Source: Thiomargarita sp. (GTDB lineage: Bacteria > Pseudomonadota > Gammaproteobacteria > Beggiatoales > Beggiatoaceae). Taken from it: a stretch of 46,198 nucleotides of DNA. A model generated the notes under the pieces. That model worked only from the letters and a program-made list of their open reading frames with translations, had not been told where the DNA came from and made no database searches. The stretch covers positions 1-46,198 of the forward strand of contig DYPD01000015.1 in NCBI GenBank assembly GCA_020720115.1. The letters run 5' to 3'. A program made the position numbers and the translations under genes. Of the stretch, positions 3,979 to 4,694 are shown piece by piece (the first letter of the stretch is position 1; the number at the start of each line of letters is the position of its first letter).

Positions 3979-4007
3979 TTGACAGAAATCCACTTGCCCA
4001 ATAGAAT
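3979..4007 (+). promoter_or_regulatory. Near-consensus sigma-70 promoter of the tRNA operon
   Basis: TTGACA (3979-3984), a 17-bp spacer and TAGAAT (4002-4007) are followed by a GC-rich discriminator (GCGTCCCC), as usual for stable-RNA promoters under growth-rate control. Transcription would begin about 10 bp before tRNA-Pro. Confidence 0.8.
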
Positions 4008-4024: not shown

Positions 4025-4101
4025 CGGGGCATAGCGCAGTCTGGTAGCGCATCTGCTTTGGGAGCAGAGGGTCGGGGGTTCGAATCCCTCTGCCCCGACC
4101 A
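4025..4101 (+). tRNA. tRNA-Pro (anticodon UGG)
   Basis: A 77-nt cloverleaf with encoded CCA. The acceptor stem CGGGGCA pairs with TGCCCCG, the anticodon loop is TTTGGGA (TGG), and the T loop is GGTTCGAATCC. It is the first gene of a Pro-Arg-His operon whose order resembles that of other gammaproteobacterial tRNA clusters. Confidence 0.96.
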
Positions 4102-4111
4102 CTTTACCCAT

Positions 4112-4480
4112 GCGCCCGTAGCTCATTCGGATAGAGCATCGGCCTTCTAAGTGAAAATTGGACCCTTAGCAGAAAACCAAACTGTTAAGGTGGATGGTGC
4201 TATATCGGTGAAACCTGTTAAATGGCAATACCGAGGAAACCTAAAGCCTTTAGGCTTTATCCGTCACGAAGGGGCAGTAAAACTCGCTTATGAGTGCTGT
4301 CGGTAGTGGTGGGTGATGTAAGCGTCAGGGTTCCGTAGAGGCCATACGCACCATGCCTGTAATGGCAAAGATATGGTCCAGACCGCAAACAGCTTGTTTG
4401 TGCTAAACAAATGGCTGGCAGTGAAAACTGTAGTGGTACGAAGCCGAGGGTAACAGGTTCAAATCCTGTCGGGCGCACCA
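4112..4480 (+). tRNA. tRNA-Arg (anticodon UCU), split by a group I intron
   Basis: The 5' exon is 4112-4148 and ends in the anticodon TCT. The 3' exon is 4441-4480, begins with A37-A38 and includes encoded CCA. Joined, they give a standard cloverleaf: acceptor GCGCCCG/CGGGCGC (4112-4118 with 4470-4476), anticodon stem TCGGC/GCCGA, loop CTTCTAA and T stem ACAGG/CCTGT. The insertion lies between U36 and A37. Without removal of the insert the tRNA cannot fold, so activity depends on splicing. It is the second gene of the Pro-Arg-His operon. Confidence 0.93.
4149..4440 (+). ncRNA. Group I intron in tRNA-Arg(UCU), 292 nt, IC3-like
   Basis: The core pairings can be laid out by eye. P1/P10: TTGGA (4158-4162) pairs with UCU|AA across the splice junction, including the expected U·G at the 5' splice site. 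P2: 4164-4172 with 4182-4190. P3: ATGGTGC (4194-4200) with GCACCAT (4348-4354). P4: CGGT (4206-4209) with ACCG (4230-4233). P7: GGCCATA (4340-4346) with TATGGTC (4372-4378), embedded in the hallmark AAGATATGGTCC. The intron ends in G (4440). The layout, including a 3-bp P1 formed with the anticodon itself, resembles the Azoarcus tRNA-Ile intron. It contains no open frame for a homing endonuclease. Confidence 0.92.
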
Positions 4481-4504
4481 GTTTTTTGATATTTTTAGTT
4501 TTAT

Positions 4505-4581
4505 GGTGAACGTAGCTCAGTCGGTAGAGCGCAGGATTGTGATTCCTGTGGTCGTGGGTTCGATCCCCATCGTTCACCCCA
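4505..4581 (+). tRNA. tRNA-His (anticodon GUG)
   Basis: The cloverleaf includes the histidine-specific extra G-1 (4505) facing C73 (4578). The acceptor GTGAACG pairs with CGTTCAC, the anticodon loop is TTGTGAT, and CCA is encoded. It is the last gene of the tRNA operon. Confidence 0.96.
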
Positions 4582-4662: not shown

Positions 4663-4694
4663 AAGCCTTTGCCTAAGCAGCAAAGGCTTTTTTT
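4663..4694 (+). terminator. Bidirectional intrinsic terminator (tRNA operon / sucB)
   Basis: A perfect 10-bp stem AAGCCTTTGC/GCAAAGGCTT with a short loop is followed by a T run on the plus strand. On the minus strand the hairpin is followed shortly by TTAGTTTTT, so it can also end sucB. Confidence 0.85.

Follow-up and report, generated by a model that had tools for sequence, protein, structure and literature searches.

The window analysed here, a 46,198-nt stretch of Thiomargarita DNA, carries a small tRNA cluster on its forward strand, in the order tRNA-Pro(UGG) (4025–4101), an interrupted tRNA-Arg(UCU) and tRNA-His(GUG) (4506–4581), the two outer genes being recognized by both ARAGORN and Rfam. 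A predicted promoter-like site, TTGACA-17-TAGAAT (3979–4007, 11 of 12 matches in a consensus scan), lies upstream of the cluster, and a predicted terminator-like hairpin with a T-run, based on consensus only, lies on its 3′ side (4663–4689). Run without introns on the window, ARAGORN misses the Arg gene and reports nothing between tRNA-Pro and tRNA-His; with introns permitted, it returns tRNA-Arg(tct) containing a 292-nt intron. The 5′ exon (4112–4148) terminates in CCUUCU, so that its 3′ end is the anticodon U34-C35-U36, the insert (4149–4440) terminates in GUACG, and the 3′ exon (4441–4480) runs from AAGCCG to CACCA. Joined, the exons form 77 nt with a complete tRNA-Arg(UCU) fold and an encoded CCA, and the end of the 5′ exon is further supported by intact orthologues. 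An AA repeat makes the splice junction formally ambiguous as read from the sequence; we place it at 4148/4149 and 4440/4441 because a U then stands at the 5′ site and the intron ends in G. The original prediction of a tRNA-Arg(UCU) gene broken between U36 and A37 by 292 nt, in a Pro-Arg-His setting, was exact to the base.

No ORF for a homing endonuclease was found in the window copy of the intron, which has no ORF of its own. The sole listed frame, of 106 aa (4257–4577, reverse strand), is antisense to the intron and tRNA-His and looks spurious as a gene.

To describe the fold we wrote out a full P1–P10 group I model and counted its pairs on an alignment of 20 homologues. Of the 1291 cells that the model pairs, 98.6% are indeed paired, and both sides have changed in 32 of 66 pairs, compared with 15 when columns are shuffled and 8–11 when partners are slid. 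Sliding the partners by 1–3 columns lowers pairing to 29–41%, and none of 500 shuffles matched the real alignment on any of five measures. The intron strand is also more stably folded than its shuffles (z −3.2). The P2 hairpin (4165–4189) has double changes in seven of eight pairs; the core of P3, P4, P6, P7 and P8 is 98–100% paired in the 20 sequences, with double changes in P3, P6, P7 and P8, and the crossing of P3 and P7 makes it a pseudoknot. The two strands of P3 (4195–4200 and 4348–4353) are paired in every sequence and doubly changed at three of six pairs, P4–P5 (4205–4234) is 98–100% paired and largely invariant, and P6 (4235–4334) carries variable P6a and P6b extensions with double changes in every pair. 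P8 (4354–4367) shows them in three of four pairs, and P9, P9.1 and P9.2 (4382–4437) are 98–100% paired, again with double changes present.

The 5′ strand of P7 (4338–4344), with a bulged A4339, pairs in the 20-sequence model with a 3′ strand (4374–4379, 100% paired) lying inside the AAGAUAUGGUCC box, and the guanosine-binding pair, judged by known group I introns, would be G4340–C4378. In one homologue the box reads AAGAUAUAGUCC instead of AAGAUAUGGUCC and the pairing partner is altered to match. RNAalifold instead pairs the guide sequence with the 3′ strand of P7, which we rule out, since P7, bulged A included, is paired in all 20 sequences and covaries. The last nucleotide, G4440, is G in all 20 homologues and corresponds to the omega G. 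The alignment upholds the P2, P3, P4 and P7 pairings, the box and the terminal G that had been proposed from the single sequence, and by the criteria of core, guide and terminal G with P10 the comparison supports the insert as a group I intron. It is homologous to tRNA-Leu(UAA) and tRNA-Arg(CCU) introns, as expected of an IC3 tRNA intron (mostly 47–71 bits with R1, a covariance model built on the 3′ core of the intron), and from this kinship alone its subgroup would be IC3-like.

The internal guide UUGGA (4158–4162) reads the anticodon itself. Its GGA pairs with UCU to form P1 (A–U34, G–C35 and a G·U36 wobble at the splice site), and its UU pairs with A37 and A38 to form P10. Four of these five pairs are kept in all 20 sequences and the fifth in 18; the wobble U36·G4160 is present in 20 of 20, the motif TGGAC in 22 of 22, and P10 is 95% paired. 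A guide of just this kind, TTGGA pairing with UCU|AA across the junction, had been claimed in advance, and the counts agree with it. The three exon pairs of P1 are invariant and so yield no covariation; P1 is supported by this invariance together with the classical group I rule.

The Rfam model Intron_gpI (RF00028), which had been suggested as a check on the original prediction, with a missing match to count against it, does not match the intron of the window even with E relaxed to 10, and lax Rfam scans of the window returned only tRNA and chance matches. The same model scores related introns in graded strength: 67.7 bits for an Arg(CCU) intron (L203) and 61.4 bits for L222, both aligned end to end; 49.7 bits for L107; 47.3 (L211) and 38.3 bits (L104) for Leu introns; 29.7 bits for an Arg(UCU) intron at 34/35 (L087); and 20.4 bits, full-length but below threshold, for an orthologue of the window intron (L017). 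Because of this gradation we attribute the missing match to the insensitivity of RF00028 for this branch, whose relatives span 20.4–67.7 bits.

The window belongs to the Beggiatoaceae, the family of large sulfur bacteria, and a search at the DNA level showed that many genomes of this family carry the insert in the same position. By covariance model, an intron at 36/37 of tRNA-Arg(UCU) is present in 22 of 43 family genomes including that of the window (21 of the 42 others), among them Thiomargarita nelsonii Hydrate Ridge, Venteria ishoeyi, Parabeggiatoa, Halobeggiatoa and Thioploca. The family introns are 236–312 nt long; all 22 loci adjoin tRNA-His and 21 also adjoin tRNA-Pro. An intact tRNA-Arg(UCU) without insert occupies the same cluster in 14 other family genomes, which supplies the intron-less relatives that the original prediction had proposed looking for, and among these mostly fragmentary genomes we found none with both an interrupted and an intact UCU copy. 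In a quick rpoB tree built from 30 genomes of the family, presence must change at least six times, four of the changes being forced by strongly supported branches; gains and losses are not distinguished on it. The sisters T. nelsonii (G017), which has the intron, and G032, which lacks it, have matching exon sequences.

Several further features were noted. Among loci L143–L162 and L079–L086, family genomes also hold introns in tRNA-Leu(UAA), in tRNA-Arg(CCU) (L154) and in CAU tRNAs at 33/34 (L083, L150). One genome (G062, L123) has four Arg tRNAs in a tandem array, and in another (G018, L127) the Pro-Arg-His cluster is duplicated, the second Arg gene being CCG. A MAG labelled Dichelobacter nodosus (L188, DYPE01000008.1) carries the family intron and groups with the family, so that its label looks wrong. 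In seven genomes (G002, G008, G009, G012, G026, G029 and G036) a break near position 285–310 interrupts the RpoB domain PF00562, in frames of about 1500–2100 aa; an intein or other insert is the likely cause.

In wider samples, R1 had matches in 46 of the 369 genomes taken from across the class and in 35 of the 398 taken from the phylum. Reading the exons gives five settings: Arg(UCU) at 36/37 (Beggiatoaceae), Arg(UCU) at 34/35, Leu(UAA) at 34/35, Arg(CCU) at 36/37 and CAU tRNAs at 33/34. The Arg(UCU) introns at 34/35 comprise 16 loci (L087–L102), spread over 12 further families of Gammaproteobacteria and mostly lying in a Pro-Arg-His cluster; their 3′ exon starts CUAAGCCG, which rules out reading them as 36/37 introns. 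We found no earlier report of them among open-licence papers, and earlier reports may exist. Three of the 16 (L091, L093 and L098, 658–690 nt) contain a PD-(D/E)XK frame, intact in L093 and L098 (PDDEXK_5, E ~1e-40) and broken over two frames in L091. The patterns used found no relatives of this endonuclease in viral contigs, and sequence comparison found none among solved structures. A 688-nt Leu intron (L112) has an HNH endonuclease frame on its opposite strand (Pfam HNH_3, at the cut-off).

A pattern scan for 36/37 introns over 84,980 species genomes gave 38 stretches, of which 20 hold Beggiatoaceae introns; the other 18 have no R1 match and are coincidental or ordinary tRNAs. The scan, which is blind to other guides, thus turned up no member of this lineage at 36/37 outside the family. 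One further UCU intron at 36/37, in a different tRNA-Arg(UCU) gene (L222 in G740, 1336–1649), belongs to another lineage, with guide UUGGG, and has perhaps spread from a CCU intron.

What depends on the split gene can be narrowed from the other Arg tRNAs. A second, intact tRNA-Arg(UCU), which had been named as evidence against the original prediction, was not found by searches of the window's 185-contig genome assembly, where the other Arg tRNA matches are CCG and CCU. The tRNA-Arg(CCU) is intact, on contig C44, and because of it AGG is covered independently, so that only AGA clearly depends on the interrupted gene. The proposed dependence of both codons on the ribozyme therefore narrows to AGA, whose reading would rely on splicing provided that the assembly lacks no tRNA gene. 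AGA is a rare codon: roughly 13 AGA and 16 AGG codons occur among 705 Arg codons in the long frames of the window, overlapping frames included. To standard annotation, genomes with the split gene seem to lack AGA decoding, because ARAGORN without introns and Rfam both miss the gene.

We consider it very probable that the locus holds a group I, IC3-like ribozyme intron, with a guide that reads the anticodon, in the one tRNA-Arg(UCU) gene that the searches turned up, and that it shares an ancestor with the introns at 34/35. The cluster is probably cotranscribed, and splicing would presumably follow group I chemistry without the help of a protein. After transcription the intron would fold through P2–P9, and the guide UUGGA would hold first the anticodon UCU, with the U·G wobble at the 5′ splice site, and then A37–A38. 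A guanosine bound in P7 would attack after U36, and the freed 5′ exon would attack after G4440, joining the exons to a normal tRNA.

Alternatively, the insert could be a degenerate intron that no longer splices, leaving the gene a pseudogene and AGA to be read by another tRNA. The silence of Rfam on the insert would fit this, as would a second UCU copy absent from an assembly of 185 contigs; but the core is conserved with compensatory changes in 20 sequences, the exons make a perfect tRNA, and an intact UCU copy was seen in none of the 22 intron-bearing family genomes while 14 relatives have one, which makes such decay very unlikely. Removal by protein enzymes of the archaeal or eukaryotic type is scarcely credible. 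Protein-spliced tRNA introns do usually sit near 36/37, close to the site used here, but the insert has a group I core with a P3/P7 pseudoknot, a terminal G and a guide, and we know of no protein-spliced tRNA intron with a core of that type.

Turning to the origin of the ribozyme intron, we built trees of 55 and 90 rows without the guide columns. In both, all 38 tRNA-Arg(UCU) introns, at 34/35 and 36/37 together, form one clade (100/99), separate from the Leu and CCU introns, and a constraint grouping the 36/37 UCU introns with the CCU introns is rejected (AU p ~0.001). The long branches that were flagged are mostly Leu, CAU and CCU rows. From these trees we conclude that the two sets of Arg(UCU) introns share an ancestor. 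The two trees disagree on the order within this clade, and with it on the direction of a shift between the sites: with 55 rows the 34/35 intron L094 joins the 36/37 set (99/96), and with 90 rows the 34/35 set is a clade (96/75).

The guides suggest how one lineage might have moved. At 34/35 the guide is AGGAG, pairing G–C32, A–U33 and G·U34 before the splice site and G–C35 and A–U36 after it, and in both classes the GGA of the guide lies 2 nt upstream of P2. Were GGA to slip by one base along UUCU and the wobble to pass to the other G, the splice site would shift by two bases. The chances seem to us evenly balanced that a single lineage slid 2 nt within the anticodon in this way, in one direction or the other, through GGA pairing with UUCU in two registers. 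It is also possible, if somewhat doubtful, that no move took place at all and that the two sites of this tRNA gene were entered separately by introns already related to each other. Independent entry at 36/37 of a UCU gene does occur, as the L222 intron of a different lineage demonstrates, related introns are found in Leu(UAA), Arg(CCU) and CAU tRNAs as well, and presence in the family switches at least six times; against separate entry, the two sets are mutual nearest relatives (100/99) in the same Pro-Arg-His gene and have an equal distance from GGA to P2. If the two-register slide is correct, self-repetition in the anticodon loop is what allows a ribozyme to slide over its own target. Across the family and its relatives, one orthologous gene offers a natural series of intron, no intron and shifted site, through which the gain and loss of ribozyme introns, and their moves over short distances, become directly testable.

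An intron of this sort is not new in kind; what this analysis contributes is its structure, distribution and origin. An interrupted tRNA-Arg-TCT was reported in Candidatus Thiomargarita nelsonii Bud S10 and Candidatus Maribeggiatoa (BOGUAY) by Flood et al. (PMC4853749), who name the inserts putative group I introns and leave type and structure undetermined. These inserts in the same tRNA and family, together with UCU introns in at least 12 further families of Gammaproteobacteria, weaken the claim that such a case is at least rare; the intron of T. nelsonii Hydrate Ridge (G017, L183) falls in the clade of the window. The nearest relatives, the Arg(UCU) introns at 34/35, share the gene and mostly the Pro-Arg-His setting, but are inserted two nucleotides earlier, use the guide AGGAG and carry an endonuclease frame in 3 of 16 cases. 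The cyanobacterial and proteobacterial tRNA-Leu(UAA) introns, found in Beggiatoaceae too, have a homologous core (R1 mostly 50–71 bits) but lie at 34/35 of another tRNA, with P6 reading GAGCYAAGC rather than GAGGAAACC. Agrobacterium-type tRNA-Arg(CCU) introns (L203–L228) share a tRNA-Arg, the site 36/37 and the U·G at the 5′ site, but form a separate lineage with guide UUGGG, and their grouping with the clade of the window is rejected. The Azoarcus tRNA-Ile(CAU) intron, of subgroup IC3, is likewise a small ribozyme of a tRNA gene, with a guide that reads bases of the anticodon, but it lies in another tRNA.
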